From a virus, in IMG/VR virus record IMGVR_UViG_3300028610_002131, positions 1 through 38,775 of that record: a DNA stretch of 38,775 nt; one strand, given 5' to 3'. This document shows, piece after piece, positions 3,621 to 36,569 of this stretch (its first letter is position 1; every line of letters begins with the position of its first letter). The position numbers and the translations under genes were made by a program. The notes beneath the pieces are model-generated. The model saw nothing but the letters and a program-made list of their open reading frames with translations. It was not told where the DNA came from and ran no database searches.

Positions 3621-3657
3621 GAACGCCCAGAGGGATTTGACTATCCAGTGCTCACAT

Positions 3658-5052: not shown

Positions 5053-5078
5053 AATGATGCCTCCTGTGTTCGTTGTGA

Positions 5079-6335: not shown

Positions 6336-6349
6336 GGACGCTCTCCTTG

Positions 6350-8794: not shown

Positions 8795-8797
8795 AGC

Positions 8798-9016
8798 TTA
8801 TATCCCGAATAAATGCGCGTGGGTGTGATAGACAGCTGCGGCCATCCCCTTCTCTACAGGAGTCAATCCACGTGCTGGCTTAGGCTTCTTAGGAGCAGCG
8901 GGATCTGACGCCAAGCACATTCTCAGCGGCAATATGCTGATTGGTTCAATCACTTTACGTGATGGCCTCTTTACAGTACGACGGACGGTCTTTCTGGTAG
9001 CTTTTTTCTTGCTCAT
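8798..9016 (-). CDS. Small basic hypothetical protein
   Basis: A 72-residue protein with a strongly basic N terminus (SKKKATRKTVRRTVKRPSRK) and a short helix near the end (PVEKGMAAAVYHTHAHL). The basic tail suggests nucleic acid binding, but no domain is recognised. Its ATG overlaps the upstream stop (ATGA), and its stop lies next to the portal start, so it is part of the packaging/head operon. Confidence 0.6.
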   Translation of the reverse strand: MSKKKATRKTVRRTVKRPSRKVIEPISILPLRMCLASDPAAPKKPKPARGLTPVEKGMAAAVYHTHAHLFGI

Positions 9017-9315
9017 GATCTTCCATTCACACGTGCTAATGCCTTTGTGACTTCTGTTAGGGCAGTACTATTGTTATGCATTGCCTCGTGGACTTTACCA
9101 AGGACATGCGTATTTCTATCTAGGGCTTCTCGGCTGTCTCGTTGAGCCAGATTAGATTCATTACCCATTTCCTTCAATATCTGGTCTCGTCTCTCCAGTG
9201 TTTCCTTGATCTGATCGTCACGTTTTGACAGGTACTTCATAAACAGCCATACCATAAGTACCATTGTTGCAAGCTCAGGTACTCTTTCTAACAGATTCCG
9301 AAACAGAACTTCCAT
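9013..9315 (-). CDS. Membrane-anchored coiled-coil protein (possible lysis accessory)
   Basis: A 100-residue protein. One transmembrane segment (about 14-28, ELATMVLMVWLFMKYL) is followed by a long charged helix (RDDQIKETLERRDQILKEM and beyond) ending with KALARVNGRS. This layout fits a small holin-like or inner-membrane protein. It sits immediately downstream of a spanin-like gene. Function is inferred only from topology. Confidence 0.55.
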   Translation of the reverse strand: MEVLFRNLLERVPELATMVLMVWLFMKYLSKRDDQIKETLERRDQILKEMGNESNLAQRDSREALDRNTHVLGKVHEAMHNNSTALTEVTKALARVNGRS

Positions 9316-9750
9316 CTATGAGCCTTTCCGTTTCCTGATCCCCCGGACTAGAAGGTAGAGGACAAACAAGCTTGCAATGAATGCTCCTACGAATATGTAC
9401 CGTTTATCAAAATCGCTCGAACCTTGTTTTCCTATTCTCCTTTCTGGTGATTTTTCAAGACTCCCAATTATATCATCAATCGGAACGAAATGCACCGTCA
9501 TACCTGCCGGTATTGTGGTGCGTTTGCTTATATCGAAGGTCTTGGTGTCCTTATTCCATAGCAGGAATCGTGCTGTGATCGGCTCTGCCGTGAGCATTGG
9601 CTCAGTTTCATTCGGAATCGCCGGAATCAGCGTTATGTTCGGACCCGGACCCCGACAAGCTGTCACGTAGGTGATCGACACTAGCATCCCCAAAATCAGA
9701 ACTAGCACGCTCTGCTTCGTCGGGTAATGATTGACGATCCCAGATGACAC
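9316..9750 (-). CDS. Unimolecular spanin-like lipoprotein with C-terminal TM
   Basis: A 144-residue protein. The N terminus holds a hydrophobic stretch ending in a lipobox-like VTAC (Cys32), a signal for lipid attachment at the outer membrane. A beta-rich periplasmic domain follows. A C-terminal transmembrane helix (about 118-136) with a basic tail (VRGIRKRKGS) ends the chain. This outer-anchor/inner-anchor layout is the hallmark of u-spanins (such as T1 gp11, about 130 residues), which fuse the two membranes in the last step of lysis. No sequence homology is claimed. The first 143 bases overlap another reading frame (9608-9799). Confidence 0.55.
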   Translation of the reverse strand: MSSGIVNHYPTKQSVLVLILGMLVSITYVTACRGPGPNITLIPAIPNETEPMLTAEPITARFLLWNKDTKTFDISKRTTIPAGMTVHFVPIDDIIGSLEKSPERRIGKQGSSDFDKRYIFVGAFIASLFVLYLLVRGIRKRKGS

Positions 9751-9799
9751 TAAACAATGCCTTGAAAATACTAGAAATTATATCCAGAATGAAACTCAC
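9608..9799 (-). CDS. Overlapping small membrane-active ORF
   Basis: A 63-residue frame starting at GTG 9799, which shares GTGA with the stop of the preceding gene. It overlaps the spanin-like gene by 143 bases in another frame. The N terminus is an amphipathic or membrane-active helix (MSFILDIISSIFKALFSVIW), and the rest is acidic and disordered. Overlapping frames are common in spanin loci, but the ribosome site is weak and this could be incidental. Confidence 0.4.
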   Translation of the reverse strand: MSFILDIISSIFKALFSVIWDRQSLPDEAERASSDFGDASVDHLRDSLSGSGSEHNADSGDSE

Positions 9800-9996
9800 G
9801 CTCCGCCGCCCTGTGCCTCCTTAATTGCGTCGATCTTCGCCATGAGACTGGCGTGAGTGGCATCAACTTCTGCCTTGGTGCTGTTTAAATCCTCGATCGT
9901 GATGTCCTGAGCGTTATTGACGTCGATAACGCCAAGCAGTTCACGTGCACCCATCATCGCGAGTCGGATCAGTGATATCATCTCTACTGGGGGCAT
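9796..9996 (-). CDS. Small hypothetical protein (66 aa)
   Basis: A 66-residue protein, largely helical: a hydrophobic N-terminal helix (MISLIRLAMMGARELLGV) and a charged helix (NSTKAEVDATHASLMAKIDAI), ending in Gly-rich GGGA. The start shares a base with the upstream stop, with AGGAGGTGAATA as a strong ribosome site. Not recognised; its place among lysis-like genes suggests a holin-like or antiholin-like role, which is inference. Confidence 0.6.
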   Translation of the reverse strand: MPPVEMISLIRLAMMGARELLGVIDVNNAQDITIEDLNSTKAEVDATHASLMAKIDAIKEAQGGGA

Positions 9997-10349
9997 TATT
10001 CACCTCCTCGCGTTATTAGGTACGGCAGCACACGAGCGATGGCTTCTTCAACAACATCGAGAAAGCGTTCAAAAACTTCACCTCCCTGGGGAGTCGTCCC
10101 TGCTGCGAGGTCAGCAACCATTTGATTGAACGCTTCATCAAGAGCTCCCTTGCCCATTTGTAGATAAGGCTGGAGAGCCACGAGATCTTCGTCCTGAACT
10201 AGACCCGAATCATGAGCCAAGTTCAAGCTTTTTTCAGTGCCCTGGAAGACCAGTGCAGCTTGTTTCCACTGCTTTGCTGGACTTGCTCCACAGCCAACCA
10301 GGGCAACGAGGACCAACAATGCAGTGATCTGCGAAAGTCTTCGTCGCAT
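9996..10349 (-). CDS. Phage lipoprotein with helical periplasmic domain
   Basis: A 117-residue protein with a clear lipoprotein signal: basic MRRRL, a hydrophobic stretch, then the lipobox LVGC (Cys20). The mature part is mostly helical (AAKQW-like start, DEAFNQMVADLAAG, FLDVVEEAIARVLPYL). It is probably exported and lipid-anchored. It lies between a holin-like gene and other small membrane genes, suggesting a lysis or superinfection-related role. The family is not recognised. The start overlaps the upstream stop by one base (TAATG). Confidence 0.65.
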   Translation of the reverse strand: MRRRLSQITALLVLVALVGCGASPAKQWKQAALVFQGTEKSLNLAHDSGLVQDEDLVALQPYLQMGKGALDEAFNQMVADLAAGTTPQGGEVFERFLDVVEEAIARVLPYLITRGGE

Positions 10350-10570
10350 TATTTCGCTCCTACATCTTCAGAGGTTTTGTTACCGTCACGGGCGAAGATC
10401 AAACCCACAGCGGCGGTAAGGGCTGGAATGACAACATTCCAGTTTGGATTTGTCGTGGCATCACCGTCTAGCAGAAGCATCCCGGCTGGAATGATTACTG
10501 CTAGAGCGGTCATTATGGCCATTGACGTCGTCTGCCACGACTTTATCCCCGTCACAAGTGCTTTTGGCAT
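10349..10570 (-). CDS. Holin-like small membrane protein (two TM segments)
   Basis: A 73-residue protein. I chose the ATG at 10570 because AAAAGGAG lies 7 bases upstream; an in-frame start at 10621 would add 17 poorly supported residues. Two hydrophobic helices are visible (about 16-34, TSMAIMTALAVIIPAGML, and about 45-60), joined by a polar turn with DGDATTNPNW. Size, topology and place next to the lipoprotein and spanin-like genes fit a class II holin, which would open the inner membrane. It could instead be another membrane protein. Confidence 0.6.
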   Translation of the reverse strand: MPKALVTGIKSWQTTSMAIMTALAVIIPAGMLLLDGDATTNPNWNVVIPALTAAVGLIFARDGNKTSEDVGAK

Positions 10571-10670
10571 TACGGTCTCCTTTTGTAATACCTTCTGGAT
10601 TGAGCTTGGCACCGTGCACAAGCTTCTTTTGGAAGTCTGTCATGTGTTGTCTTGTATCTGCTTTGTTCAT
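10461..10670 (-). CDS. Possible small ORF overlapping terminase stop and holin-like gene
   Basis: A 69-codon frame whose ATG at 10670 shares ATGA with the terminase stop. Its first 37 codons (MNKADTRQHMTDFQKKLVHG and on) fill the otherwise empty 96 bases before the holin-like start. The rest overlaps the holin-like gene and looks like a Ser/Asp-rich shadow. The overlap style supports translation; the composition argues against it. Confidence 0.3.
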   Translation of the reverse strand: MNKADTRQHMTDFQKKLVHGAKLNPEGITKGDRNAKSTCDGDKVVADDVNGHNDRSSSNHSSRDASARR

Positions 10671-13132
10671 CCGACTGCAACCGAAGGCGATCCGCCTCGG
10701 CTCCTCATTTGTTCACTGATGCCCCAGCCGAAGATCGTATCATCGTGACAACCAGGGTCTGCTTCAAACTTACCATTCTTCTGAAGTTTGAATGTCGTGC
10801 ATTGGCCAAGATATACATCATCATGAATTAGTTCGGGATTGTCATCTTGAAATACACGGTCATCACTAAGAATCATCGGACGAGTACTACTGTTGGTGTC
10901 CCATCCTGACCGCCGCTTGTCGAACTTGAACAGATAACGATATCCAATCTTCCTGACTTCTGATATCACGGCATGACCGTGATTGTTCCGCTCAATGCCC
11001 CAGAATGCATTATTGTACTCCCTACACATCTTCACGCCTAGTTCCGCTAGATACTCAGGTCGCCATAGACCATGAGCCCAGGCGACCTGTTCACCTGTTC
11101 GCTTGTCCTTAATGCATACGTTTCCCAGATCCCCTCCTCTGATGCCTTCAGACGTATCGCTTCCCGCAACATATCTACGTCCCTTGACGGGGGACTTGTA
11201 TCTGTAGATGTTGCCCCCTGGAACGGACTGGACCTTGTATGTCCGGGCGAGTTTTTTGAGAAGGGCAAGAATGCTGCCAATGTCATAATAAGCGGTCCCG
11301 CTAGTGAGGAAGCAACTTTCGTCATCTTCAGGATACTCTTGAGGAAACAGCACACCCAGGTCACGTATCTTCTGTCTTCGCCAGGCAACCTGGGCCATAG
11401 TCAGTACAACTTTCCATTCGGAAGCTGCACGTTTGATTAGATCTTTTTCTTCTTCTGAAAGGGTCTCAGCAATCTCTTGCGGATTGTAGTCCCCCTCTTG
11501 TTTCGTATTCAGAGGATCAATATACCAAGGCAGAAAGATAGGCCACCAGTTATTTGCTCCAACCTTGGCCTCGCGATAATTCGGACAGAACCATCCATCC
11601 ACCCCATTGGCGGTACTCTCCATAACCATAGTACCGTGACTGGTTGCTTCCTGAAGTCCAGCAATCAAGTCATTTACAATGTCCGCTTGGTTAGGTCCAA
11701 TACACCATTTGGATACCTCAGAGCCATGTACACGGCTGAGAGTATCCCCACGACCAGGAGCGTTTCCCGAAGCAGTGGCGGTAAAATACTGACTATCAAG
11801 AATAGGAAACTCGAGACGGCGAGCATTTCCCACGCCTTTAATTTCTGGAGCCTCGGGGTCGTTTTCGTGATACCGTTTAGAAATCCTGAAGATTTCCGTA
11901 GTGCTTTCTTCTGTGTGGGCGAGAGTGAGACATCTGGTATGCTTTCGAGTAGTCGCCAGCTTATAACTTTCTGCTTGCTCATAGGTTGTAAATCCTCCCC
12001 GTCGATATTTGAGCAAGATGCATTTGCTGAAACCTTTTGCTGCTGCACGTGCCTTCTCCTGCTCATAAAACATCTGCAACGGCCAACACTCAAATGGCAC
12101 CACGCTGCCAGTCTTATCACGAATCCAAAGTCTTTTGGCCGTGAAATCACTGACCTCCATGGTAGAATATTCATGCCGTAGGAGCCGACGATCTATTGTG
12201 TTCTCAACCTTGTCCTTCAAGTTATCAGCAAGCTCGCTGTGAAACTCTACTGCTCCCTCCTCGAAACGTTGAGGCTGAGCTTGATCAATACGTTTGCCCA
12301 AGACAAGTTGCTCGTACTCAGGTGACTTCTTGCCATGCTCCTTTGTGATCTTAGCTATCGTCTTCTTGTCGATACAACCTGCGATAGCAATACGGCCATT
12401 CTTAATGTTGGGGTGATTAAGCCCGCTCATTGTCAAACCGTCTCTGCTATAGGTAGCCCAAGCACCGTTGTCTTGGCCTCGTCCTATGATGATACGGGCA
12501 AAACCATTAGCCTCTGCCATATCCATAATGATATGCCAGGCTTCTTGAGGATATCGATCTGCGGCATCTAAGATCAGCATTCCATCTGACGCTTGTGTAC
12601 TTGCGTACTGTTTGGCTTGCGAAGCCTTAAAGGCAGTCAGATACCAATTCTCTGACAGATCGACAATTGTCCCCGACCATTGTCCGGGTAGAGGCTTCAC
12701 GGCTTGCTGACTAAGATCCCTCATCTGGCCCCAGAGACCACTCATCAGCAAAGCCTTATTAGGTGCTGTAACAAACACCTTGGTTCCCGGTCCTCGAGCA
12801 TGCAACCACCATAGTCCCAGTATCGCAGCTACAAATGTTGATCCCACGAAGTTCGCAGAGATCATAGAAACATCTTGATCCTCTTCCGCTAAAGCAATCA
12901 CCTTCCTTTGATCGAGCGAGAACCTTTTAATATTCAGGATTTCCTTGGCAAACGCAAGAGGATCTGAAACGTAATCTGTGAAGTGAATGCGATTGAGTTG
13001 TGCAGACACCTTCGCCTTGAGCTCTCTACGCATAAACTCCCCAGGCGTAAGCTCATGGCGTGCAGCTTCCGGCCGCTTTAGCGGTACACGTCGTTTGTGT
13101 ACCCGCCAATCTTTTGTAGCTTCAACTGTCAT
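10667..13132 (-). CDS. terL: Large terminase subunit with an extra N-terminal ATPase-like domain
   Basis: An 821-residue protein from the ATG at 13132 (AAAGGATAAGG upstream). Residues about 55-285 look like a terminase ATPase (DPLAFAKEILNI, VFVTAPNKALLM, SPEYEQLVLG), but the Walker A place reads NFVGSTF (94-100, no Lys) and Walker B LILDAAD (186-192, no Glu). A complete terminase follows: LKYRRGGFTT (374-383, Walker A-like), HGSEVSKW (469-476, Walker B-like), MESTANG (504-510), then nuclease motifs GSDTSEG (657-663), IERNNHG (713-719) and HDDTIFGWGI (796-805). It packages DNA and cuts concatemers. Usual length is 450-650. The double-ATPase layout is unusual. Confidence 0.88.
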   Translation of the reverse strand: MTVEATKDWRVHKRRVPLKRPEAARHELTPGEFMRRELKAKVSAQLNRIHFTDYVSDPLAFAKEILNIKRFSLDQRKVIALAEEDQDVSMISANFVGSTFVAAILGLWWLHARGPGTKVFVTAPNKALLMSGLWGQMRDLSQQAVKPLPGQWSGTIVDLSENWYLTAFKASQAKQYASTQASDGMLILDAADRYPQEAWHIIMDMAEANGFARIIIGRGQDNGAWATYSRDGLTMSGLNHPNIKNGRIAIAGCIDKKTIAKITKEHGKKSPEYEQLVLGKRIDQAQPQRFEEGAVEFHSELADNLKDKVENTIDRRLLRHEYSTMEVSDFTAKRLWIRDKTGSVVPFECWPLQMFYEQEKARAAAKGFSKCILLKYRRGGFTTYEQAESYKLATTRKHTRCLTLAHTEESTTEIFRISKRYHENDPEAPEIKGVGNARRLEFPILDSQYFTATASGNAPGRGDTLSRVHGSEVSKWCIGPNQADIVNDLIAGLQEATSHGTMVMESTANGVDGWFCPNYREAKVGANNWWPIFLPWYIDPLNTKQEGDYNPQEIAETLSEEEKDLIKRAASEWKVVLTMAQVAWRRQKIRDLGVLFPQEYPEDDESCFLTSGTAYYDIGSILALLKKLARTYKVQSVPGGNIYRYKSPVKGRRYVAGSDTSEGIRGGDLGNVCIKDKRTGEQVAWAHGLWRPEYLAELGVKMCREYNNAFWGIERNNHGHAVISEVRKIGYRYLFKFDKRRSGWDTNSSTRPMILSDDRVFQDDNPELIHDDVYLGQCTTFKLQKNGKFEADPGCHDDTIFGWGISEQMRSRGGSPSVAVG

Positions 13133-13415
13133 CCTTATCCTTTGATTTCCTCTTCTTAGCAGCAGCAGCGGCAGAATCTGCAACAGTGGCAGCCATAGTA
13201 GGTTCAGGCACATGCTTTACGCCTGCTGCCTTCAAAATATTTACCTCTTCTATCCTACGAGCATGTTTCTCGTACAAAGCTGCAACTTGATTGAGGTGGT
13301 TTGCTGCATACTCAAGATGCTCCCTGCCCCCGTGTATCATGCCTCCACGGGCTTCCATCATGTGTAGTACCATAGAACGAATTTTAGCAGAATTTTGGAA
13401 ATCCTCTGGCCTCAT
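13122..13415 (-). CDS. Small helical protein upstream of terminase
   Basis: A 97-residue helical protein: HLEYAANHLNQVAALYEKHARRIEE forms a probable coiled coil, followed by an Ala-rich linker and a basic KKRKSKDKDD tail. Its stop overlaps the terminase start by 11 bases, so the two are translationally coupled. Position would suit a small terminase subunit, but there is no visible DNA-binding helix-turn-helix and it is short for one. AGGAGC precedes the ATG. Confidence 0.55.
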   Translation of the reverse strand: MRPEDFQNSAKIRSMVLHMMEARGGMIHGGREHLEYAANHLNQVAALYEKHARRIEEVNILKAAGVKHVPEPTMAATVADSAAAAAKKRKSKDKDDS

Positions 13416-14272
13416 TAATTTCGTGCTCCTACAAGTCTTGCGTGGAATTGATCTAAGAAACTCTCTGTAATTTCCCGACCTATTTGAACCTGATACTCTT
13501 TGCCATTTTCAAAGATAAATGACGAACTGCGTTTGATCTCGGTTGTTCCTACCGAAGTAAAGGACACTGTCGAATTGGCTACCTCTACACCGTCTGTGAG
13601 ATTAAAAACTCTGAATGTTATGGCAGGAGAGGCCCCGGTAGCCCTGGCCTCAACAAACCACTTGACCGCATTGGCATAGTTGCTCGCTACATACTTGAAC
13701 ACGAGTCCTACAGGCTGATAGAATCTAGTGTCTTCTACCTCGGTAACACCTACTGTACTATCAATGACCTCGATCTGCTCTACGCCAAGGTTGGTATCCT
13801 CTGTTTCCGTAACGCCGATGGTACTGCTGAAGATTTCAACAATAGCCTTTACATGCAGATTGCCTTCCGTTATACCAATTGTTTCATCATCTACGGGCAA
13901 GTGTACAATGAATGGAACCAAATCCTCCGTAACACCTACGATACTTTCAACGAGTTGCGGTCCAAAAGGTTGTACGGTAACTATGCCCTCGGCAATACCA
14001 AGAGTACTCGCAAGCAGATCAAAGAACCCTGGTACACGATCATTGGTCTCTGTAACGCCTATGGTCTCATCAAGAACCTTATTAAAGCCCAGAATGAAAG
14101 TGATAGTCTCTGTGCCGCCCACAACATCATTTAACTCAAGCTTCTGCGTGGACTTGAGGGCGGCATCTGCGATCCCAACGTTCTCGTTGAACTCCTTAAG
14201 CATCGGTATAACGCGAGTCAGAATCTCGGCAGATCCGACGTCGTTATCGATGACTTCTACAAGAGCTACCAT
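13415..14272 (-). CDS. Structural protein with tandem GVTE-type repeats
   Basis: A 285-residue protein. Residues 1-185 contain about nine imperfect repeats of roughly 18-25 residues, each centred on a (T/V)(I/V)G(V/I)(T/A)E core: DVGSAE, NVGIAD, TIGVTE, TLGIAE, IVGVTE, TIGITE, TIGVTE and TVGVTE among them. The last 100 residues form a separate beta-rich domain (FRVFNLTDGVEVANSTVSF, ENGKEYQVQIG). Repeats like these suggest an elongated fibrous or surface-binding protein, perhaps part of the tail tip or an adhesin. The start and upstream stop share TGATG. Confidence 0.6.
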   Translation of the reverse strand: MVALVEVIDNDVGSAEILTRVIPMLKEFNENVGIADAALKSTQKLELNDVVGGTETITFILGFNKVLDETIGVTETNDRVPGFFDLLASTLGIAEGIVTVQPFGPQLVESIVGVTEDLVPFIVHLPVDDETIGITEGNLHVKAIVEIFSSTIGVTETEDTNLGVEQIEVIDSTVGVTEVEDTRFYQPVGLVFKYVASNYANAVKWFVEARATGASPAITFRVFNLTDGVEVANSTVSFTSVGTTEIKRSSSFIFENGKEYQVQIGREITESFLDQFHARLVGARN

Positions 14273-14796
14273 CAGGCCCCAAGCATTGTATGGTTCACGA
14301 ATACCTTCAGCGTATCAGAAGACGTCTTGGTGAATTTGGATGCAAAGTTCGCGATCGCTAAGGACTTTGTCGGCGTAGTCAAGTTGTCTGGCAAGTCAAC
14401 GGTCGCAAGATCTGCCGAGTTCCCCTCGCCAGTACCCCAACTGGACCGCCAGGTCACGGCATCTGCCAGAGCACCTGTGTTGTCGGTATCGTCGTCATCT
14501 GACTTAGGATAGCCAACATCAATAGGCTGGTTCCCCGAACCGCCCAAGACCGATGATCCAGTTGTCGTGGTCATATCGACATCTGTCTTGATCGGAGTAG
14601 TTGCCGCTCCTGCATTTGTACCCAGGCGAATACCAGCTATCGTGAAGTTGGGTGTTTCCTGTGCGCCAACTTCGGCATAATACTCATCGCCCGAGTTTGT
14701 GACAAGATTATGCGTTTCTCGAATCTTGATATTGCCGTCCTTGTCCTTGAGGACAATTACAACTGTTCCCTTGATTTTGCATTCTTCATCCGGCAT
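14272..14796 (-). CDS. Virion-associated protein, beta-rich
   Basis: A 174-residue protein. I chose the ATG at 14796 because GAAGGAG lies 9 bases upstream and it overlaps the previous stop by 11 bases, the spacing seen at the terminase; a longer frame starts at 14865. The N-terminal strands (VVIVLKDKDGNIKIRETHNLVTNSGDEYYAEVG) resemble a domain common in phage tail/fibre-associated proteins, followed by a Thr/Gly-rich segment and a C-terminal domain. Function inferred from place between fibre and repeat-protein genes. Confidence 0.55.
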   Translation of the reverse strand: MPDEECKIKGTVVIVLKDKDGNIKIRETHNLVTNSGDEYYAEVGAQETPNFTIAGIRLGTNAGAATTPIKTDVDMTTTTGSSVLGGSGNQPIDVGYPKSDDDDTDNTGALADAVTWRSSWGTGEGNSADLATVDLPDNLTTPTKSLAIANFASKFTKTSSDTLKVFVNHTMLGA

Positions 14797-14983
14797 CTGC
14801 TTGATCTCCTTCAGGAGGGTCTGTGTCGAGGAGACTCTCGCGAACCTCCTGATCGAACGCGACATTGATTCGAGCGTCTTTACTTACCAGTGTTACGCCT
14901 TGAGGATTTTTACTCACGTCTTTGAATGTGTCCATCCCTAGCACAATTTCAAATAACATAACCTGCGTAAAAGAATTCGGCAT
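14786..14983 (-). CDS. Small hypothetical protein (65 aa)
   Basis: A 65-residue protein. The ATG at 14983 is favoured over one at 14989 because AAAGGG lies 6 bases before it. The sequence has a hydrophobic start (SFTQVMLFEIVLG) and an acidic end (DTDPPEGDQADAG). Not recognised. It sits in the fibre operon and overlaps the next gene by 11 bases. Confidence 0.5.
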   Translation of the reverse strand: MPNSFTQVMLFEIVLGMDTFKDVSKNPQGVTLVSKDARINVAFDQEVRESLLDTDPPEGDQADAG

Positions 14984-14993
14984 GTTCATCCCT

Positions 14994-16472
14994 TTAAGTA
15001 TTGTCCCGTACCAAAGTCAAACAGATACTTGATTCACCAGCAATTAATGTTACACTGCCTCCGCCCGCTTCTCTGTTACACACCACTTCAATATAATCAT
15101 TAGCAGCCAGACTCACAAGTGTATTGATATGAACAGAAGATTCATCATGAGTACCTGTGGTGACAATACCACCTGCACCTTTACCTGCTTGAAGCGTTGT
15201 GCCATTAACCCGAAGCTGCGCATTGACACTAACCGTATTGGAAGCTGTTGACATCGTCAGGATGACATCAACTAGATAAATGCCCGTCTTTTCAACTTCA
15301 ATACGAGAAGGATTACTACTGGGATTATGCGTAAAGACGCTCGGGCCTTCGTCGATAGATGCTGTTTGATCCCAATCGACAATTACATTTGTTCCGTTCA
15401 AGGAACTACCGAAGTTGGTTGTTGTCTTAAAGCAAGAACCTAAATTCGGCACCCCACGGATTTCTGTAGTGTCTTGGAAATCTATTACACCGTCAGTATT
15501 GACCCACTGTATCGCATTATCAACTCGAGCCGTGATATCAGCTGCATTAAACTCGAAGAAGCAATCTGCTGCTGTTCCTACGAACCCCGCAGCATCAACG
15601 TCTATGTCTGCTACGTTGGTTAGGCTTATCGAATTGAAATTGACCTCTGCAACATCAATAGTTATTATCGTTGCGCCAGCAGAATCTTTAAACAGTATGA
15701 GGCCATCTGTTCCACCGCCTGCGGCCGCACGAGCTTCAAATATAAGATCTCCCGCAGGGAAAGTTGAAGCCCCTATGCCCGCCTTTAAGGTAAGATCTCC
15801 TCCGCTGGCTGCGATGATACCATCTTGACCTTGGATGAGCAAATCGTTAACAAGAGGACTCGTTGGTACCGTCCATACGCCTATCGAAATGTCCATCACT
15901 GCGGTAGCAGAAATGAAGATCTCTAGACTTGTACCTGGGGCCTTTAGATAACTTGTTCCTGCCACATTAAAAACAAATCTGCCGCCATTTGCTTTGAAAT
16001 CACCTGCACTGGAAAGAAATTGTATTTCGTTAAAATCTATTCTGACGATATCAATAGTTGAATGCTTGAAGATATAACCGATATCTCCTGAAGATTCACG
16101 AATACTCGAAAGCGGACTGGCTTTGAATATCAGATCATTGGCATCAAGATCCAGATCCCCCGTCATCTTTCGCGTACCATCAGCAAGGAAATAATGGGGG
16201 TGATCGTCATCGCCCAGTCCCGTTAGAGCACCGTGGTCGACGGCTCCAGGAGGCGTATGCGGCTCATACATATGTATGGTAAACTCACCGCCAGGAAAAG
16301 CATCACCAACAAGACCAACTCCTTCTCGAACGCCAACCTGGCCATCAACTATTTCGACGGCTCTACGATTCTCAAAGCGTTCTTGAACGCTCTTGGTCGT
16401 GTTTGTGCGCAGATACCATTCTGTATCAGAACCTATCTGCGAAGAGGAGTTGAGGTTCTTGCTGAAGCTCAC
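14994..16472 (-). CDS. Tail fibre / receptor-binding protein
   Basis: A 492-residue protein. Near residue 79-107 it has the tail-fibre hallmark HGALTGLGDDDHPHYF followed by RKMTGDLDLD, an element seen in fibre shafts and head-attachment segments. The central part (about 110-340) is repetitive and beta-rich. The last 140 residues resemble a C1q/TNF-like trimeric head: IEVEKTGIYLVDVILTMS, VNGTTLQAGKG, LAANDYIEVVCNR. This protein probably binds the host surface. The start is GTG 16472 sharing GTGA with the upstream stop. Confidence 0.75.
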   Translation of the reverse strand: MSFSKNLNSSSQIGSDTEWYLRTNTTKSVQERFENRRAVEIVDGQVGVREGVGLVGDAFPGGEFTIHMYEPHTPPGAVDHGALTGLGDDDHPHYFLADGTRKMTGDLDLDANDLIFKASPLSSIRESSGDIGYIFKHSTIDIVRIDFNEIQFLSSAGDFKANGGRFVFNVAGTSYLKAPGTSLEIFISATAVMDISIGVWTVPTSPLVNDLLIQGQDGIIAASGGDLTLKAGIGASTFPAGDLIFEARAAAGGGTDGLILFKDSAGATIITIDVAEVNFNSISLTNVADIDVDAAGFVGTAADCFFEFNAADITARVDNAIQWVNTDGVIDFQDTTEIRGVPNLGSCFKTTTNFGSSLNGTNVIVDWDQTASIDEGPSVFTHNPSSNPSRIEVEKTGIYLVDVILTMSTASNTVSVNAQLRVNGTTLQAGKGAGGIVTTGTHDESSVHINTLVSLAANDYIEVVCNREAGGGSVTLIAGESSICLTLVRDNT

Positions 16473-19015: not shown

Positions 19016-20020
19016 CTACTGAACGTCTAAATTTGGTTGGAGGCTTACACTGTCCTCTAGGCTGGTGTCCACCGATGGCGGGGGAATTGAGGGTGGTACG
19101 GGTGGTTCACCATGATCCATGCCAAACATCAGCTGTTCAATCGTCATCCGATGCATAGTATCAAAGAACCAATAGGCAACATCAAAGTCCTCTGCGATAT
19201 CCTTCTGCACCAACGGCGGTGCCCACAGGTGGTAGGTATCGTACATTTCCTGCCTAGGCAACGCGGGAGTACCGTCGGGGTTCAGCGGCTGGGCATGCCC
19301 GGAGATCATCAATGTACCCCGACCTGCCATCTCCTCTCGCTGTGCCCACCGGGACACATAGCCTTCCTTACGAGGTGGCCAGGTGTTGCCATGTTCAGAA
19401 TCTGCAATGTTGCGCCAATAATGACCGTGGTTCGCAGTCCAGTCAAAGCTACCCAGCCAAGCCGTTCGCTCCTGGGGATGGCAGGTGCCTTCAATGTAGC
19501 TCTTTGTCCCTAGAGCTCTTAGCATCTTAGCTGCATGATGCTCGGGGCCACCCTCGCTCCAACCGCCTCCTGCGGCATCATACGCGATACTACATCCTGA
19601 GTTGAGGATGGGACGAATGGATCTCACAAAGCGATCGATCCAATTGTCGTCGCTGTATCGTTTCGTGATCAGCTGTAGCATATCACGGTCTAAGCCCAAC
19701 GCTCCAACGTAACAGATTACTTCTATGCCCTGACGAGTCAGGCTTCGCATAGATCTCGCGAAGCCACGGTATAACCTGGTCAGACGACGCTCTCTCGCTA
19801 CGAGCAAGCTATCAAAGCTCATAGCACTCTCTAGCTCGTTCTTGCCGAAAGGCAGGTGGAACATAAAGCGTCGAAGGCCCCAATCGATCTGGGGCATGAT
19901 CTTTTGATCTATGTATTGCGGCCAAGTCAGGTCTTTCCTATACAGAGTACTATGCATAGGAACCGTACGAGCCATAGAGGCCATGGGATGAAACGCCATC
20001 AAATTACTAGCATCGGGCAT
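19016..20020 (-). CDS. Putative TIM-barrel-like hydrolase
   Basis: A 334-residue protein from the ATG at 20020, which has AGGAG 8 bases upstream and shares TAATG with the stop of the dockerin-like gene. Segments DWGLRRFMFHLPFG, QGIEVICYVGALG, CSIAYDAAGGGW and GTLMISGHAQP look like successive beta/alpha units of a glycosidase-type barrel, with many Trp, His and Asp residues. I infer a carbohydrate- or cell-wall-active enzyme; no catalytic motif can be named. The Pro-rich tail (PPVPPSIPPPS) is probably disordered. Coupling to a dockerin-like gene suggests the two act together. Confidence 0.5.
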   Translation of the reverse strand: MPDASNLMAFHPMASMARTVPMHSTLYRKDLTWPQYIDQKIMPQIDWGLRRFMFHLPFGKNELESAMSFDSLLVARERRLTRLYRGFARSMRSLTRQGIEVICYVGALGLDRDMLQLITKRYSDDNWIDRFVRSIRPILNSGCSIAYDAAGGGWSEGGPEHHAAKMLRALGTKSYIEGTCHPQERTAWLGSFDWTANHGHYWRNIADSEHGNTWPPRKEGYVSRWAQREEMAGRGTLMISGHAQPLNPDGTPALPRQEMYDTYHLWAPPLVQKDIAEDFDVAYWFFDTMHRMTIEQLMFGMDHGEPPVPPSIPPPSVDTSLEDSVSLQPNLDVQ

Positions 20021-20355
20021 TAGGGCGTCTCCTGACATCGGAATTCATTCCACGCATCGCGGTCGAAGTCACCCCACCACGCCAACAGAATTATTAGGTC
20101 TGCAATCCCCACTACACCGTCACGATCAAGGTCGCCCCATTCGCAGCACATACCCGTCGGGCCGAGACACGCCACGTCATCGCATGCACCCCAGCCCGCG
20201 AGCATACGGAGTAGATCGGGTACGCCAACGCTATCGTCAGCACAACTTCCACCGCCAGCCGAGGGAGGACCAGCAGCATCGGGAGTCTGATAGCATACCA
20301 TTGCGGGATACGGGAGTGGACAGTCACATTGCGGAGGAGGACATTCACTAAACAT
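20020..20355 (-). CDS. Cysteine-rich protein with dockerin/EF-hand-like repeats
   Basis: A 111-residue protein with many Cys and Pro. Residues 74-95 (GDLDRDGVVGIADLIILLAWWG) match the dockerin-like calcium loop, with D75, D77, D79, G80 and D86 as candidate ligands; this type is common in Planctomycetes exported proteins. An earlier copy (about 38-57, ADDSVGVPDLLRMLAGWG) lacks the first Asp residues and may be degenerate. Dockerins bind cohesins or calcium outside the cell. AGGAGCC precedes the ATG. It is coupled to the putative hydrolase. No signal peptide is clear, so location is uncertain. Confidence 0.75.
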   Translation of the reverse strand: MFSECPPPQCDCPLPYPAMVCYQTPDAAGPPSAGGGSCADDSVGVPDLLRMLAGWGACDDVACLGPTGMCCEWGDLDRDGVVGIADLIILLAWWGDFDRDAWNEFRCQETP

Positions 20356-20367: not shown

Positions 20368-20652
20368 CTATCGGGGTTTCCAATCTCTGGGTGCAACGCC
20401 GCGAGGAGTTCGGTTGGCACCTCGCGTGCTGATGTTGAGCGGAATATTGCTGCTCTGCATGAAACAGATGAGATTCTCTCTTGTCACCATTCGGTAACCG
20501 TATGGGCCTACGCGATAACACTTACACAAGCCGAGGTTCATGTAGTCTCTTATCGCATCGCGTCCAAGCTGACAGAGGAATGCCGCTTCACCAATCGTGA
20601 AAGTCGCAAGCTTGCTCGGTAGTGTCGTGGTGTCTAACATCGCCATATTCAT
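20368..20652 (-). CDS. Putative helix-turn-helix DNA-binding protein
   Basis: A 94-residue protein if the ATG at 20652 is used; an in-frame start at 20721 gives 117 residues but overlaps the upstream gene far more. TFTIGEAAFLCQLGRDAIRDYMNLGL resembles the helix-turn-helix of MerR or excisionase-type proteins, followed by VGPYGYRMVTRENLICFMQ, like the wing. It may be a regulator, perhaps of the adjacent divergent control region, which has repeated operator-like sites. No start has a good ribosome site. Confidence 0.45.
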   Translation of the reverse strand: MNMAMLDTTTLPSKLATFTIGEAAFLCQLGRDAIRDYMNLGLCKCYRVGPYGYRMVTRENLICFMQSSNIPLNISTRGANRTPRGVAPRDWKPR

Positions 20653-20971
20653 CCGTAAAGCAGATCTCTCGACGCTCATACCGCTGTTTGCCATTAAGCA
20701 CACGGCGTCGAAAGCCGTCATCCGTGAGCGATTGATAGCGTTGTGTCAGTTTCCAAGTGGTACGGACCAGTTGCTCCAGTGACCGAAAGTGCTCCCCATT
20801 GATCCGCCGTACAGCCAACCGATGCAAGGCAATATAGCACTGGCCCCGGTACTCGGCGTCGATACCTTGCAGCATCGGCAAGAACGGAGCAATTATTTGT
20901 TGAAGCCCTGACCGCCGTGCACTTGGAGGCGCAGTAGTAAGGAGACGGCCAGGGCACATGGTGGCTATCAT
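20588..20971 (-). CDS. First gene of the minus arm, hypothetical
   Basis: A 127-residue basic protein (ARRSGLQQIIAPFLPMLQGI, LHRLAVRRINGEHFRSLEQL, DDGFRRRVLNGKQRYERRE). It is the first gene transcribed leftwards from the divergent region and has AAAGGG 8 bases upstream of its ATG, but that site can pair in a hairpin. Not recognised; possibly a regulator. Confidence 0.55.
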   Translation of the reverse strand: MIATMCPGRLLTTAPPSARRSGLQQIIAPFLPMLQGIDAEYRGQCYIALHRLAVRRINGEHFRSLEQLVRTTWKLTQRYQSLTDDGFRRRVLNGKQRYERREICFTDEYGDVRHHDTTEQACDFHDW

Positions 20972-21005: not shown

Positions 21006-21075
21006 CGTTCTCGTGGTGATAGAAATGAATGAAAATTTGTCGGGAAAAGGGTCCGCAAACACACTGTCGAAATTT

Positions 21076-21110
21076 CATGCGATTTGGTACCTCCATTTGG
21101 TACCGTTTTG
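21076..21110. repeat. Cluster of GGTACC-type operator-like repeats
   Basis: Three near-copies lie in tandem: ATTTGGTACC, CCATTTGGTACCG and TTTTGGTAC. The 14-mer TCCATTTGGTACCG (21092-21105) recurs exactly at 21377-21390. CATGCGATTTG (21076) recurs at 21150, next to the first 24-bp repeat. Spaced copies with a palindromic GGTACC core look like binding sites for a dimeric regulator. Confidence 0.55.
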
Positions 21111-21159
21111 GTACTCTTGAAGGAAGTGGTGCTGCTGCTTTTCGGTATTCATGCGATTT

Positions 21160-21183
21160 GTTACCGACTAACCTACCAATTGG
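21160..21183 (-). repeat. 24-bp repeat, copy 1
   Basis: This site carries the reverse complement of CCAATTGGTAGGTTAGTCGG plus TAAC, one mismatch from the perfect pair at 34552 and 36485. It faces copy 2 at 21443, forming an inverted pair around 259 bases of control region. Confidence 0.8.
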
Positions 21184-21272
21184 GGTACTATACGTTAGAG
21201 ACCATGGAGAACAATGGCGTGGGCCTGTAAGTTCTACTAGTGTAGGGTAATGAGAGATAGAGAGGATAGGAG

Positions 21273-21286
21273 ATCATCCGGATGAT
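21273..21286. promoter_or_regulatory. 14-bp perfect palindrome
   Basis: ATCATCCGGATGAT is a perfect dyad lying between the two facing 24-bp repeats. It may be a regulator or recombinase binding site; function not visible. Confidence 0.35.
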
Positions 21287-21376
21287 ATGTCTACTTGTGG
21301 CGGAATTGCGTAGTGATGGAGAATCATGTTATATTTCTGTATTCAGTAGGAAAGTATCGTTTCCCTGTGATCTAAG

Positions 21377-21390
21377 TCCATTTGGTACCG
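21377..21390 (+). repeat. Second exact copy of the 14-mer TCCATTTGGTACCG
   Basis: Identical to 21092-21105. Its first bases also match the tail of the 24-bp repeats at 21443 and 36485, where AAATGGA follows the element, so the two motif families overlap. Confidence 0.5.
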
Positions 21391-21442
21391 TATGAACAGG
21401 ACAAAATGGAATCACATTCTGGGCGAGACATTTGCCGAGCTC

Positions 21443-21466
21443 CCAATAGGTAGGTTAGTCGAGACC
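21443..21466 (+). repeat. 24-bp repeat, copy 2
   Basis: CCAATAGGTAGGTTAGTCG is exact, and the last five bases differ in three positions from copies 3 and 4. The site is followed by AAATGGA, as at copy 4. It is in inverted orientation to copy 1. Confidence 0.75.
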
Positions 21467-21605
21467 AAATGGAGATAATGGGTCATTAATCACAATATGC
21501 ACAGTCAGATCTTATTCACTTTCGTGAAACGATATTGGTCCTAGAATTTTTGCATATCATGAAACGGAAAACGGATTCACGCAAAATATATTACGCACCG
21601 CGAGA

Positions 21606-21637
21606 GGCCAAGCCTTATAAGCTTAGGGCCTTTTTTT
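21606..21637 (+). terminator. Rho-independent terminator-like hairpin with T7 run
   Basis: GGCC and AAGC pair with GCTT and GGCC around a CTTATAA loop, with an AG bulge, then seven T. No plus-strand gene precedes it, so it may end an unseen short RNA or leader. The overlapping AGGGCC (21625) and GGCCCT (21651) give a competing stem, as does TAAACCC/GGGTTTA (21656-21680), so alternative folds are possible. Confidence 0.5.
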
Positions 21638-21718
21638 AGGATTTTTTTGCGGCCCTAAACCCTTTAATACTAGGGGTTTACGGCGGTCAAAAAATAGTTT
21701 TAATTAGCCCGGTTTTAT

Positions 21719-21747
21719 TTGCGGCCGCCCGGTTTTTGAGGTATAAT
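21719..21747 (+). promoter_or_regulatory. Sigma70-like promoter for the first plus-arm gene
   Basis: TTGCGG (21719-21724) and TATAAT (21742-21747) are separated by 17 bases, the best spacing for a housekeeping promoter. It would start a transcript about 100 bases upstream of the gene at 21858. The leader contains several GGGCC and A-tract stems. Confidence 0.65.
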
Positions 21748-21857
21748 AGGGGCGTAACGCGGGCCTAAAAAAAAACGGGCCGCGTAAAAAAAACGGGCCG
21801 CTTAAAAAGCGTAAAAATTAAACGGCCTAAAAAAACTTACCTTTGAAAGGGTAAAAA

Positions 21858-22076
21858 ATGAAATTGGATTTAGGTACGCCTGAAGGCCGTGAAAAAGCCC
21901 GCCTTGAAATAGGCGGCCGGGTAACTAAAGTTTTTGAGGGCGTTCCGGTTCAAAAAGCTTACGTAACCGCTATACGTAAGCGGGCTGAAAAAGCCTTAAA
22001 CCGCCTACTTTATGAAGTAGGTTTACCTAGCGTAGGTTCTGAAGTTTATAAGCCCGTAGGTAAAAAGGCGGGCTGA
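21858..22076 (+). CDS. Small paralog family, copy 1 (72 aa)
   Basis: A 72-residue protein with a helical core (RAEKALNRLLYEVGL) and a shared segment KVFEGVPVQ.AYV.AI, ending YKPVGKKAG. By hand alignment 56 of 72 residues equal those of copy 2 (23052-23270); copy 3 at 24005 is more distant. Function unknown; the basic ends suggest nucleic acid or protein contact. GAAAGGG sits 8 bases upstream of the ATG. The codons differ strongly from copies 2 and 3 (many AAA, TTA, GTA). It has its own promoter and a trailing hairpin. Confidence 0.75.
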   Translation: MKLDLGTPEGREKARLEIGGRVTKVFEGVPVQKAYVTAIRKRAEKALNRLLYEVGLPSVGSEVYKPVGKKAG

Positions 22077-22393: not shown

Positions 22394-22448
22394 TGTGGGG
22401 CCTGTGGGTACGCCTGTCCTGTGGGTACGTGCTGTGGGTACGCAGGGC

Positions 22449-22500
22449 ATTGTACTACCCCATTGTACTACCCCATTGTACTACCCCATTGTACTACCCC
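22449..22500 (+). repeat. Four perfect tandem 13-mers
   Basis: The unit ATTGTACTACCCC is repeated four times with no mismatch. Such iterons can be protein-binding arrays, including replication initiator sites, but they may also be slippage products. A T-free run of about 60 bases follows. Confidence 0.8.
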
Positions 22501-22596
22501 ACAGCACAGCCCAGGCCAACCCACGCCAGCACAGCACAACACAGCACAACACAGCACAGGGGAGTGTGGCCATGGCCAGAAACAAATGCTTGGGTT

Positions 22597-22694
22597 TGGC
22601 CAGATGGAAATCCTCTGTGTTGTAGCCCCACAGCCCAGTGGCCATGGTTCTGCTCAACAACCTGGTTTTGCCCAAATGGAAATCCTCTGTGTTG
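22597..22694. repeat. Dispersed 85-base repeat family, left block
   Basis: The core TGGAAATCCTCTGTGTTG is found at about 22605 and 22678, and relatives in the right block at 23411 and 23517. Around it, each unit has TGGCCATG, then a TTTGGCC stretch, then the core and a GAGGA tail. Copies are diverged and interrupted, in direct orientation. Confidence 0.6.
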
Positions 22695-22956
22695 AGGAGG
22701 CCTCAGGGCACAGTGCCCATGAATTTGCCCATGTGTTCAGTCAGAAGCGAAAATCTGGCCATGATTTTGATCAAATGCTTGACTTGCATGGAATGAAAAT
22801 CCATCTGCTCAGTCAGAAGCAAAAATTGCTCATGATTTTGATCAAAAGCCTGACTTAGCCCATTTGAAAATCCAACCCAGTTCAACACAACTCAGCTCAG
22901 CCCACCTCAGCACAACTCAGCACAGCTGACAAAAAAGAATTTATTTATTTTGTTTT

Positions 22957-22989
22957 TTGACTAGCTTTTTTGAATTATGCGGCTATAAT
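22957..22989 (+). promoter_or_regulatory. Promoter-like element of paralog copy 2
   Basis: TTGACT (22957-22962), then 21 bases, then TATAAT (22984-22989) and AGCG. The same TT(G/C)ACT-21-TATA(A/C)T spacing recurs upstream of 24005 and 24635. The long spacing is off for sigma70, so the upstream box may be a separate binding site. Confidence 0.55.
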
Positions 22990-23051
22990 AGCGTATGATC
23001 CGGCGGCGTTCGCCGGGGCCGAAAATTCTGTGTATCTTGAAAGGGTACAAA

Positions 23052-23270
23052 ATGAAGTTCGATCTGAGTTCTGATTCTGGCCGTGAAGCTGCCCGTAAGA
23101 TGGTCGGTGGCCGCGTGACTGCGGTTTTTGAAGGCGTGCCCGTCCAACCGGCGTACGTCGCGGCCATCCGGAAACGGGCGGAGAAGGCTCTGAATCGCCT
23201 CCTCCATGAGGTGGGCCTGCCCCAAACGGGCACCGAGGTCTACAAGCCCGTCGGCAAAAAGGCTGGCTGA
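23052..23270 (+). CDS. Small paralog family, copy 2 (72 aa)
   Basis: A 72-residue protein, equal in length to copy 1 and 56 of 72 identical by my alignment. Shared core: FEGVPVQ.AYV.AIRKRAEKALNRLL.EVGL. Codons are GC-ending (GCC, CTG, AAG), unlike copy 1, so synonymous sites are very divergent. I chose the ATG at 23052 because GAAAGGG lies upstream; an in-frame ATG exists at 22995. A terminator with T5 follows. It sits between two blocks of the 85-base repeat. Confidence 0.75.
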   Translation: MKFDLSSDSGREAARKMVGGRVTAVFEGVPVQPAYVAAIRKRAEKALNRLLHEVGLPQTGTEVYKPVGKKAG

Positions 23271-23276
23271 CCGGCC

Positions 23277-23311
23277 GAGAGGGGCCTCGCCTAACGGCGG
23301 GGCCTCTTTTT
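23277..23311 (+). terminator. Rho-independent terminator after copy 2
   Basis: A GC-rich stem (GGGGCCTCGCC with GGCGGGGCC, one G-T pair) closes on TAAC and is followed by TCTTTTT. It lies 7 bases after the stop. A solid terminator. Confidence 0.75.
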
Positions 23312-23410
23312 CCCCACGTTCTCTGTGCTGAGCACACGCTCAGGCCTCAGTGGCCATGATTCTGGCCAGAAAGAAGAATGTGGCCATGAATTTGAAGAAA
23401 TACTTGGTTT

Positions 23411-23547
23411 TGGCCAAGTGGAAATCCTCTGTGCTGAGGAGCCACTCAGTGCTCAGTGGCCAAAATTCTGGCCAACCAGAAGAATCTGGCCATGAAGATG
23501 AAGAAATACCTGCTTTTGGCCAAATGGAAATCGCTCTGTGGTTCCAC
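23411..23547. repeat. Dispersed 85-base repeat family, right block
   Basis: Two cores, TGGCCAAGTGG + AAATCCTCTGTGCTG (23411) and TGGCCAAATGG + AAATCGCTCTGTGG (23517), with upstream GAAATAC(T/C)TG stretches that match each other. Related to the left block at 22597. Confidence 0.6.
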
Positions 23548-23891
23548 AAAAATGTGGCCAAATTTCTGATCAAACACTTGGTTTGATGGAAATGGAAATC
23601 GCACACCCCTATTTCATGAAATAAAAGTCATGATTAAATTATCATGAAATGGGCGCATGAAATAATATCATGACTCGTTTCCACATGCTTGTGGGCAGAC
23701 TCAAAAGCAAATCGGTGCAGTGCGCAGTGTGATCGCGAGCTGCTTCGCACGGGGTCATATATCATTTGTGCGTACCAATTCGGGTCAACCTAATCAGCAC
23801 GCCTGTACGCAGTCATAAACAACGAAAACACCTATTTCTATTGCGGCAAGTGCGTATCAAAATTAAAACTATTTTTCTGATATTGTTATAT

Positions 23892-23924
23892 TTCACTTTA
23901 CTTTTGACCTACGCCCGCTATACT
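23892..23924 (+). promoter_or_regulatory. Promoter-like element of paralog copy 3
   Basis: TTCACT (23892-23897), 21 bases, TATACT (23919-23924). The 16-mer ATTGTTATATTTCACT at 23882-23897 recurs exactly at 24517-24532, upstream of the gene at 24635. A leader GGTTCAAAGTGAAC follows. Confidence 0.5.
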
Positions 23925-24004
23925 TATATTAGCGTTCGGGTTCAAAGTGAACCTCAACGCCGTCCAGTTTTCTGTGGCCCCTTGTGGGCCAGAAAGGAGC
24001 CAAA

Positions 24005-24259
24005 ATGGCTGCCACTAATCCCCCCAGGTCCGGCGGTTTGATCAGCATTCTGAGCAGCGAGCAGGGCAGGCAACAGTCCCTGACCGACCTCAGAAATCAG
24101 GTCACGAAGGTCTTTGAAGGCGTGCCGGTGCAGCCCGCGTACGTCAAGGCCATCGCCGACCGGGCCGAGAAAGCCCTCAACAGGCTTTTGCACGAAATCG
24201 GGCTGCAACAGGTGGGCACCCAGATCTACAAGCCTGCCGGTAAAAAGGCGTCCGCGTAG
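24005..24259 (+). CDS. Small paralog family, copy 3 (84 aa)
   Basis: An 84-residue protein with a longer N terminus (AATNPPRSGGLISIL) but the same core (KVFEGVPVQPAYVKAI, RAEKALNRLLHEIGL, YKPAGKKA). AAAGGAGCC precedes the ATG, the extended ribosome site of the plus arm. It is followed by a 36-residue membrane gene and a terminator, making a two-gene unit. Confidence 0.7.
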   Translation: MAATNPPRSGGLISILSSEQGRQQSLTDLRNQVTKVFEGVPVQPAYVKAIADRAEKALNRLLHEIGLQQVGTQIYKPAGKKASA

Positions 24260-24477: not shown

Positions 24478-24526
24478 GGTAGCCGCATATTTCAAAGGAA
24501 GCACGACTTTCATGAAATTGTTATAT

Positions 24527-24559
24527 TTCACTAGCTATACCTAATTGCGGCGGTATAAT
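24527..24559 (+). promoter_or_regulatory. Promoter-like element of the gene at 24635
   Basis: TTCACT (24527-24532), 21 bases, TATAAT (24554-24559). Shares the 16-mer at 24517-24532 with the copy 3 promoter, and GGTTCAAA(A/G)TGAAC in the leader. Confidence 0.55.
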
Positions 24560-34205: not shown

Positions 34206-34324
34206 ACCATCCTGGGGTGGCGTGTGGCAGCGAGACCGTGATGCCGAGGTTTTGGGTTAGGCTCCTTCCAAGGTATCACGTGTTCCCCACACGCCCCCTG
34301 GGACTTTACAGAGGAGGCTCATGA
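34202..34324 (+). CDS. Possible small basic protein (40 aa)
   Basis: A 40-residue frame with ATG in ATGA overlap with the previous gene, and a stop overlapping the next start. Basic (FWVRLLPRYHVFPTRPLG). Supported only by the tight overlaps on both sides. Confidence 0.4.
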   Translation: MNHPGVACGSETVMPRFWVRLLPRYHVFPTRPLGLYRGGS

Positions 34325-34563
34325 TGGATTGTCCAATGTGTGGCAAGAAAGTTAGCATCAAGACAATTAAGAAATCTCGTGGATGTACCAGTGGCATGAT
34401 AATTTTCGCGATGGGTGTTGCTATCACAATAGTTATACCAATTGTCGGGTGGGTTCTTGGACCACTCATCTGTATCAGCGTTCTGCTAGATGGCGGCGAA
34501 GAAACCAAGATAATCTATTGCAAAAAATGTAAATTAGATCTCCATCCTTCCGTTACCGACTAA
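34321..34563 (+). CDS. Membrane-inserted zinc-ribbon protein (LITAF-like layout)
   Basis: An 80-residue protein. CPMC (4-7) and CKKC (about 67-70) flank a hydrophobic stretch (about 25-56, MIIFAMGVAITIVIPIVGWV and on), the layout of LITAF-like domains, where a zinc ribbon is split by a membrane helix. Homology is not certain. Its last codons (VTD, stop) lie inside 24-bp repeat copy 3. Function unknown; might sit in the host membrane. Confidence 0.55.
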   Translation: MMDCPMCGKKVSIKTIKKSRGCTSGMIIFAMGVAITIVIPIVGWVLGPLICISVLLDGGEETKIIYCKKCKLDLHPSVTD

Positions 34564-34575
34564 CCTACCTATTGG
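34552..34575 (-). repeat. 24-bp repeat, copy 3
   Basis: The perfect reverse complement of copy 4 (36485-36508). It supplies the TAA stop of the zinc-ribbon gene and marks the left edge of a 1909-base segment ending at copy 4. Confidence 0.85.
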
Positions 34576-34586
34576 AAGACGCTACG

Positions 34587-34769
34587 ATGCACGAACCCGA
34601 AGAAGACGACGTCGAAGATGAATACGAATGCGTACTGTGTGAAAGGACATTTTCGCACTTGCCTAAGGTGTGTGAATGTGGAAACCATACGTTCAATAAG
34701 ATAGAGGAGCCAGCCGATGACCCAAGCGAAGAGTGGCTCGCAGGCGAGCAGCGAAACTTCTCCGACTGA
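34587..34769 (+). CDS. Small acidic zinc-ribbon-like protein (60 aa)
   Basis: A 60-residue protein from ATG 34587 (a TTG at 34572 is possible). Contains ECVLC (about 14-18) and CECG (about 29-32), a pair likely to bind zinc, within a very acidic context (EPEEDDVEDE). First gene inside the repeat-framed segment. GGAAG lies upstream. Confidence 0.55.
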   Translation: MHEPEEDDVEDEYECVLCERTFSHLPKVCECGNHTFNKIEEPADDPSEEWLAGEQRNFSD

Positions 34770-35610
34770 ATTCAGTCCAGCTGATTTTCTCGGTAAGGTT
34801 GATGTGCCAGAAGGTCAAGTGGGCCAGTATAAGATTCGTCACATTCACGATGGTGATGGCAGTATGCGACCTATCAGTAGCCTGCGAACCTCGATGTTCG
34901 GAGGACACAAGAGCGAAAGGGTCACATTTCCTCAGGGAGCCAAGTGGCATGAGCTGAGTTATTCCAACGGTGTTTGGATGACTGATCTTCCGATTGAACA
35001 ACAACAGTGTAACCAATTATTGAAAAACTTTTACGGCAACATATTGGTGGGTGGCTTGGGGATAGGCTATGCGGTCAACTTGCTCGCGTCCATGAGCGAC
35101 GTGAATGAAGTAACCGTTGTAGAGATCAGCCCAGAGGTTATAGAGCTAGTTGCCGGACACATCATAGATCCAGAGGGGAAAGTTGAAGTAATAGAGATGG
35201 ATCTCTTTGAATACCTCAAGAAAGAACAAGAGGACACTATCGGAACAGGCATCTACTTCGATTGTGCATTCTACGACCTCTGGCAAAGTGATGGCGAAGG
35301 AACGTTCCATGACATGGTCGTGCCACTTAAGAAATTAAGTGAAGGCACTGTTGAACATGTCGTTTGCTGGAATGAAGACATCATGAAGGGTCAACTCTTT
35401 TTCAATCTACAATCTCGGTTTCGTATGTGCAACCTCCCGCCCGAGTTCACTAGCCATTGTAAGATAGATCTAACTCTCGAACTACTGGCAACCATACAAG
35501 ACGACAAGTACTGGGATTGGGCTGTCCCATTCTGGAAGGATTGGATAGAAGGCGGCTATCCACCGGAGAAGTTCGACGATCGTGCAGCAGCGTTTGTGAG
35601 GGCCCAATGA
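34717..35610 (+). CDS. SAM-dependent transferase-like protein (spermidine synthase-like fold)
   Basis: A 297-residue protein with a class I Rossmann signature: GGLGIGY (112-118), VVEISPEVIELV (134-145, with the ribose-binding acidic residue E136), MDLFEYL (161-167) and FDCAFYDLWQ (181-190). The layout resembles spermidine synthase-like or methyltransferase proteins. Substrate unknown. AGGAGCC lies 6 bases upstream. Main gene of the 24-bp-repeat-framed segment. Confidence 0.65.
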   Translation: MTQAKSGSQASSETSPTEFSPADFLGKVDVPEGQVGQYKIRHIHDGDGSMRPISSLRTSMFGGHKSERVTFPQGAKWHELSYSNGVWMTDLPIEQQQCNQLLKNFYGNILVGGLGIGYAVNLLASMSDVNEVTVVEISPEVIELVAGHIIDPEGKVEVIEMDLFEYLKKEQEDTIGTGIYFDCAFYDLWQSDGEGTFHDMVVPLKKLSEGTVEHVVCWNEDIMKGQLFFNLQSRFRMCNLPPEFTSHCKIDLTLELLATIQDDKYWDWAVPFWKDWIEGGYPPEKFDDRAAAFVRAQ

Positions 35611-36495: not shown

Positions 36496-36508
36496 GTTAG
36501 TCGGTAAC
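36485..36508 (+). repeat. 24-bp repeat, copy 4
   Basis: CCAATAGGTAGGTTAGTCGG plus TAAC, the exact inverse of copy 3, followed by AAATGGA as in copy 2. It supplies the TAG stop of the DUF115-like gene and closes the framed segment. Confidence 0.85.
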
Positions 36509-36569
36509 AAATGGAATCAAATCCAATGACCCCGAGACGTCGACTTAAGGGACTTAAGGGAGTTAAGTG

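Follow-up and report, generated by a model that had tools for sequence, protein, structure and literature searches.

A four-copy composite DNA element shared by the central control region and one operon of an uncultured phage, with a probable regulatory role

An uncultured phage carries a 24-bp element in four copies, arranged as two facing pairs, one of which lies in the central control region and the other around a single operon of the right arm. Within the window, which is the whole 38,775-base stretch of the virus record that was analysed, copy 1 (GTTACCGACTAACCTACCAATTGG, 21160-21183, plus strand) and copy 2 (GGTCTCGACTAACCTACCTATTGG, 21443-21466, minus strand) face each other across 259 nt (21184-21442), whereas copy 3 (34552-34575, plus strand) and copy 4 (36485-36508, minus strand) do so across about 1909 nt and are the same at 24 of 24 nucleotides. 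Re-reading of these positions bore out the initial annotation, which had described two facing pairs, a 259-base spacer, and one and three mismatches to the perfect pair in copies 1 and 2, respectively. The four-copy element is real and statistically secure, and a regulatory role for it is probable.

The core GACTAACCTACCWATTGG has four matches with at most three mismatches in the 38.8 kb window, against 0.05 expected from dinucleotide shuffles, and an 18-nt core, GACTAACCTACCNATTGG, has exactly four matches, with no additional site when three mismatches are allowed. A scan of the window with the 24-bp matrix, as the initial annotation had proposed, set the same four copies apart; these score 33-37 bits, the best shuffle reaches 17.1 and the next-best site in the window 10.4. 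Sites of intermediate score were found neither in the window nor in the approximately 6.5 kb added by a near-identical contig. Assemblers normally use words longer than 24 bp, and misassembly through the repeat is therefore unlikely. The contig in question, L020, is 99.9% identical to the window, covers positions 1-15938, extends leftward beyond them and holds no copy of the element that could be found; neither it nor a second near-identical contig, L030, extends to the element. Since L020 continues past the window, the genome is incomplete and further copies may exist elsewhere. In the leftward extension of L020 and L030 there is a long, tape-measure-like ORF. At the other end of the window, positions 38716-38775 are Illumina adapter (AGATCGGAAGAGCACACGTCTGAACTCCAGTCAC, an index and ATCTCGTATGCCGTCTTC), such that about 60 bases are artefact and not phage DNA.

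The 24-bp element is the inner portion of a larger composite site. Over the 12 nt flanking the copies on their outer side, 39 pair-matches are observed among the copies, compared with a mean of 18.0 for random neighbourhoods and with none as high in 20,000 sets, whereas on the inner side the similarity ends abruptly and stands at chance level (20 pair-matches, P 0.32). As the similarity runs outward only, the conserved unit exceeds 24 bp and is polar. The outward similarity constitutes a second motif, overlooked in the initial annotation and here termed the A box (ATTTGGTACCG, consensus ATTTGKTACCG), while the inner B box (GACTAACCTACCWATTGG) is confined to the four copies. The A box is a full outer extension in copy 1 (21156-21166, plus strand, one mismatch), is degenerate in copy 2 (21460-21470, minus strand, two mismatches) and lies at the outer side of copy 4 (36502-36512, minus strand, one mismatch); copy 3 is without the ATTT portion. 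From the A box to the end of the B box a weak dyad can be drawn by direct reading, but is poorly kept in individual copies. In the whole window the A box has 17 matches with at most two mismatches, compared with 7.3 in shuffles, and five of the matches cluster within 21082-21470.

This cluster belongs to a divergent non-coding control region of about 800 bp (21063-21857), which separates the left gene arm, on the minus strand, from the right arm, on the plus strand, contains copies 1 and 2, and lies close to the cumulative GC-skew minimum near 21 kb. At least three A boxes stand alone within it, all on the plus strand: at 21082-21092 (ATTTGGTACCT), with CATGCG directly before it as in copy 1, at 21095-21105 (ATTTGGTACCG) and, between copies 1 and 2, at 21380-21390 (ATTTGGTACCG). 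Direct reading adds a weak A-box-like repeat, TTTTGGTACTC, which abuts the second of these (21106-21116, plus strand). The 14-bp perfect palindrome reported earlier inside the first pair is present at 21273-21286 (ATCATCCGGATGAT), and one GGTACC, the repeat that had been placed there, stands in the spacer at 21384, with two others outside the pair (21086 and 21099). Runs rich in A/T follow at 21600-21850. Adjoining the control region is a small ORF in three diverged copies on the plus strand (repeat D2; 21858-22076, 22995-23270 and 23984-24259; 67-74% identity). The early right arm also carries a tandem 13-bp repeat, CATTGTACTACCC, at 22448-22512 and a 53-nt repeat family with seven copies at 22560-23600.

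Copies 3 and 4 enclose exactly one operon, composed of four co-oriented ORFs on the plus strand (34587-36495). The first ORF (34587-34769) encodes 60 aa, the second (34717-35610) a methyltransferase-like product (phrog_15480, E 1.5e-15), the third (35607-35831) 74 aa and the fourth (35752-36495) a product resembling phrog_30607 (E 3.3e-29). Copy 3 holds the TAA stop codon of the preceding ORF (34321-34563), and the ATG of the first operon gene follows 11 nt further on; the product of this preceding ORF has a LITAF-like domain that is covered almost fully, with an E value of 0.0003 that narrowly misses the Pfam cut-off. Copy 4 holds the TAG stop codon of the fourth operon gene, the product of which ends at its C-terminus at about the same place as its homologues. 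Both copies are thus located at stop codons of complete-looking genes, and therefore occupy gene boundaries and leave the genes unbroken. Distant relatives of the fourth gene have no other window gene in common, and the loci of its nearest relatives show only weak, unrelated inverted repeats and no comparable flanking repeats.

These observations point to a composite, asymmetric site that would be bound by a single sequence-specific protein, probably a transcription regulator of the phage, a reading to which we give about an even chance of being correct. It is consistent with four near-identical copies without intermediates, with the presence of two of them in the divergent region at the GC-skew turn, with the solitary A boxes there, with similarity that extends outward and not inward, and with the position of copies 3 and 4 over stop codons, bracketing one operon. 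The first pair and the solitary A boxes would allow leftward and/or rightward transcription to be controlled from the central region, and copies 3 and 4 would place the four-gene operon under the same protein, possibly by blocking or allowing transcription into and out of the operon, or by looping. What we infer here is the binding of a protein, the phage origin of that protein, its control of transcription and the sign of its effect. The initial annotation had proposed that one phage-encoded protein, either a regulator or a recombinase, acts at both pairs. A single protein is still the most economical reading and is partly supported; of the two options the regulator is preferred, because the sub-box recurs alone in the control region, the genes are not truncated and searches for an integrase, a resolvase or a transposase found none.

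Several features fit a regulator less well. Graded weaker copies, which are usual for operators, are absent, the A box of copy 3 is incomplete, and no consensus sigma-70 promoter was found to overlap any of the four copies, although that consensus may not be the one used by the host, whose own promoters may differ. Candidate regulators were matched without confidence. The helix-turn-helix product favoured earlier (20368-20655, minus strand) has a weak MerR/HTH_17 resemblance with an E value of about 0.1, below the Pfam cut-offs, gives E values of 0.2-0.6 against solved MerR-type regulators, and yields an unusable structure model (pLDDT 40); as the regulator of the element it is a weakly supported candidate, to be treated as a lead only. 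The neighbouring product (20020-20355, minus strand) contains a dockerin-like GDLDRDGVVGIADLIILLAWWG motif. Such motifs are typical of Planctomycetota proteins, and this one is a possible hint of the host.

No sequence relatives covering either pair were found among 2.9 million viral contigs, phage records and 84,980 species genomes, the last being scanned by pattern only, and very near records may be absent from these collections. Searches for relatives through the proteins of the cassette, the control region and the flanks likewise revealed none at the element loci, and the left part of the element, TTACCGACTAACCTACC, had no match in the collections scanned. The core itself was matched five times in the viral collection, always at one locus within an ORF of small contigs, and four times in the genome collection, as single copies in four unrelated organisms; both sets of matches are taken as chance.

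Among known systems, the stoperators of cluster A mycobacteriophages have a 13-bp core and occur as many as 30 times per genome, mostly in one orientation relative to transcription (PMC6550527). The present element resembles them in being a short asymmetric site that recurs far from the control region as well as within it, and it may work like them, with one protein tying distant genes to the switch. Its sites, by contrast, number four, measure 24-28 bp and stand in facing pairs. For a cognate repressor there is a sub-threshold helix-turn-helix candidate. Cluster K mycobacteriophages carry 11-19 copies of a 13-bp start-associated sequence (SAS), with a 17-bp inverted repeat (ESAS) just upstream (PMC3203893). 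Here too the repeat is composite, includes an inverted component and lies at gene boundaries, but its arms are separated by 259 nt in one pair and by about 1909 nt in the other, and the copies number four. A separate, extended start-associated sequence, AAAAGGAGCCTA, precedes several right-arm genes on the plus strand (24313, 25841, 26757, 27048, 28428 and 33914) and is reminiscent of the cluster K SAS (GGGATAGGAGCCC).

The main rival to the regulator site, which we consider unlikely, is an inward-directed, phage-specific promoter recognised by an RNA polymerase, a sigma factor or an activator of the phage. Transcription of the operon would then start at copy 3, that of the rightward and leftward arms at copies 1 and 2, respectively, and an antisense transcript at copy 4. 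The length and invariance of the element are like those of the T7/T3 single-subunit RNA polymerase promoters, which are very uniform sites of roughly 23 bp with GG at the end, and the element has TTGG at its inner edge. In four of four copies an ATG lies 8-20 nt past that edge, which for copy 3 is the start of the first operon gene, with GGAAG as a possible ribosome site, and the location of copies 1 and 2 at the divergent region would also suit a promoter. Nevertheless, the similarity to T7/T3 promoters amounts to 10-12 matches in 23, near chance, with the best value of 12/23 reaching an uncorrected P of about 0.05-0.07 for copies 2 and 3 and with none for copies 1 and 4. A polymerase gene was not seen; PF00940 matched neither the window nor G006, in a search that had no positive control and on an incomplete genome. 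The copies moreover face each other, copy 4 would drive antisense transcription into the operon, and the remaining right-arm genes are without a copy. Elsewhere in the right arm a 41-nt direct repeat (23857-23897 and 24492-24532), terminating in TTGTTATATTTCACT, is possibly a pair of early promoters.

It is improbable that the copies are terminal inverted repeats that delimit two non-autonomous units, a MITE-like unit of 307 bp and a gene cassette of 1957 bp, mobilised by one transposase. Such units would agree with inverted ends that both pairs share although their interiors are unrelated, with the absence of intermediate copies and with the interior of the 307-bp unit, in which RNA structure does not exceed chance (z -0.2 and -0.3). 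Inverted ends also surround a short non-coding or small segment in MITE-like elements and in the mobile elements of mycobacteriophages (MPME). The terminal repeats of an insertion are expected to match sharply up to their outer edge and to be unrelated beyond it. Here the opposite is seen, as similarity runs past the supposed ends and halts inside. Reading of the flanks revealed no target-site duplication at either pair, although some families lack one, no transposase was found, and the flanking and terminal genes look intact. In the viral and genome collections there was no paired element elsewhere and no relative covering the loci, and comparable repeats do not flank the closest relatives of the final gene in the cassette.

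Less probable still are replication or partition sites, in which the A boxes would act as iterons of a bidirectional origin and the element would be its initiator site. The skew minimum, the direct repetition of the A boxes at a spacing of 11-13 bp and the A/T-rich runs accord with an origin, but the operon-framing pair is left unexplained, and the skew turn is explicable without an origin because it coincides with the divergent gene orientation. We regard as very improbable a set of sites at which a site-specific recombinase inverts the 259-bp segment, the 1.9-kb segment or both. Repeats of about 24-26 bp that face each other in inverted pairs, and the weak imperfect dyad over the A and B boxes, are compatible with such sites, but tyrosine and serine recombinases (PF00589 and PF00239) were absent from the window and from G006 in searches with working controls, on an incomplete genome, and flipping 34552-36508 would set the operon against the entire right arm. 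Recombination from one pair to the other would turn round a large part of the genome. Equally remote is a long RNA stem at both loci, acting as a processing site or closing a structured RNA, since the differences between the arms of the first pair are, by direct reading, mismatches that are neither compensatory nor G-U and thus destroy pairing, and the interior alone is unstructured; a 333-nt RNA over this pair does fold better than shuffles owing to its terminal arms (z -3.0 and -3.6), but Rfam gave no match and a stem would not need identical sequence at both loci.

Returning to the regulator site, a more specific form of it, which is unlikely, is that a phage protein reads facing pairs of one long asymmetric site so as to insulate or loop a complete accessory operon, which would be switched as a bracketed unit together with the central decision region. 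On present evidence the element is not a new kind of system; if the insulating or looping arrangement is true, however, phage regulons would be seen to have a new type of layout. An operon bracketed by facing sites would in any case be an unusual layout, should the regulatory reading hold. If that reading is correct, the regulon of an uncultured phage would have been identified from sequence alone, as a private site common to its control region and one accessory operon made up of a methyltransferase-like gene and its companions. The element would then provide a defined DNA probe with which its putative regulator could be fished out, and a handle on the control circuit of an uncultured phage.
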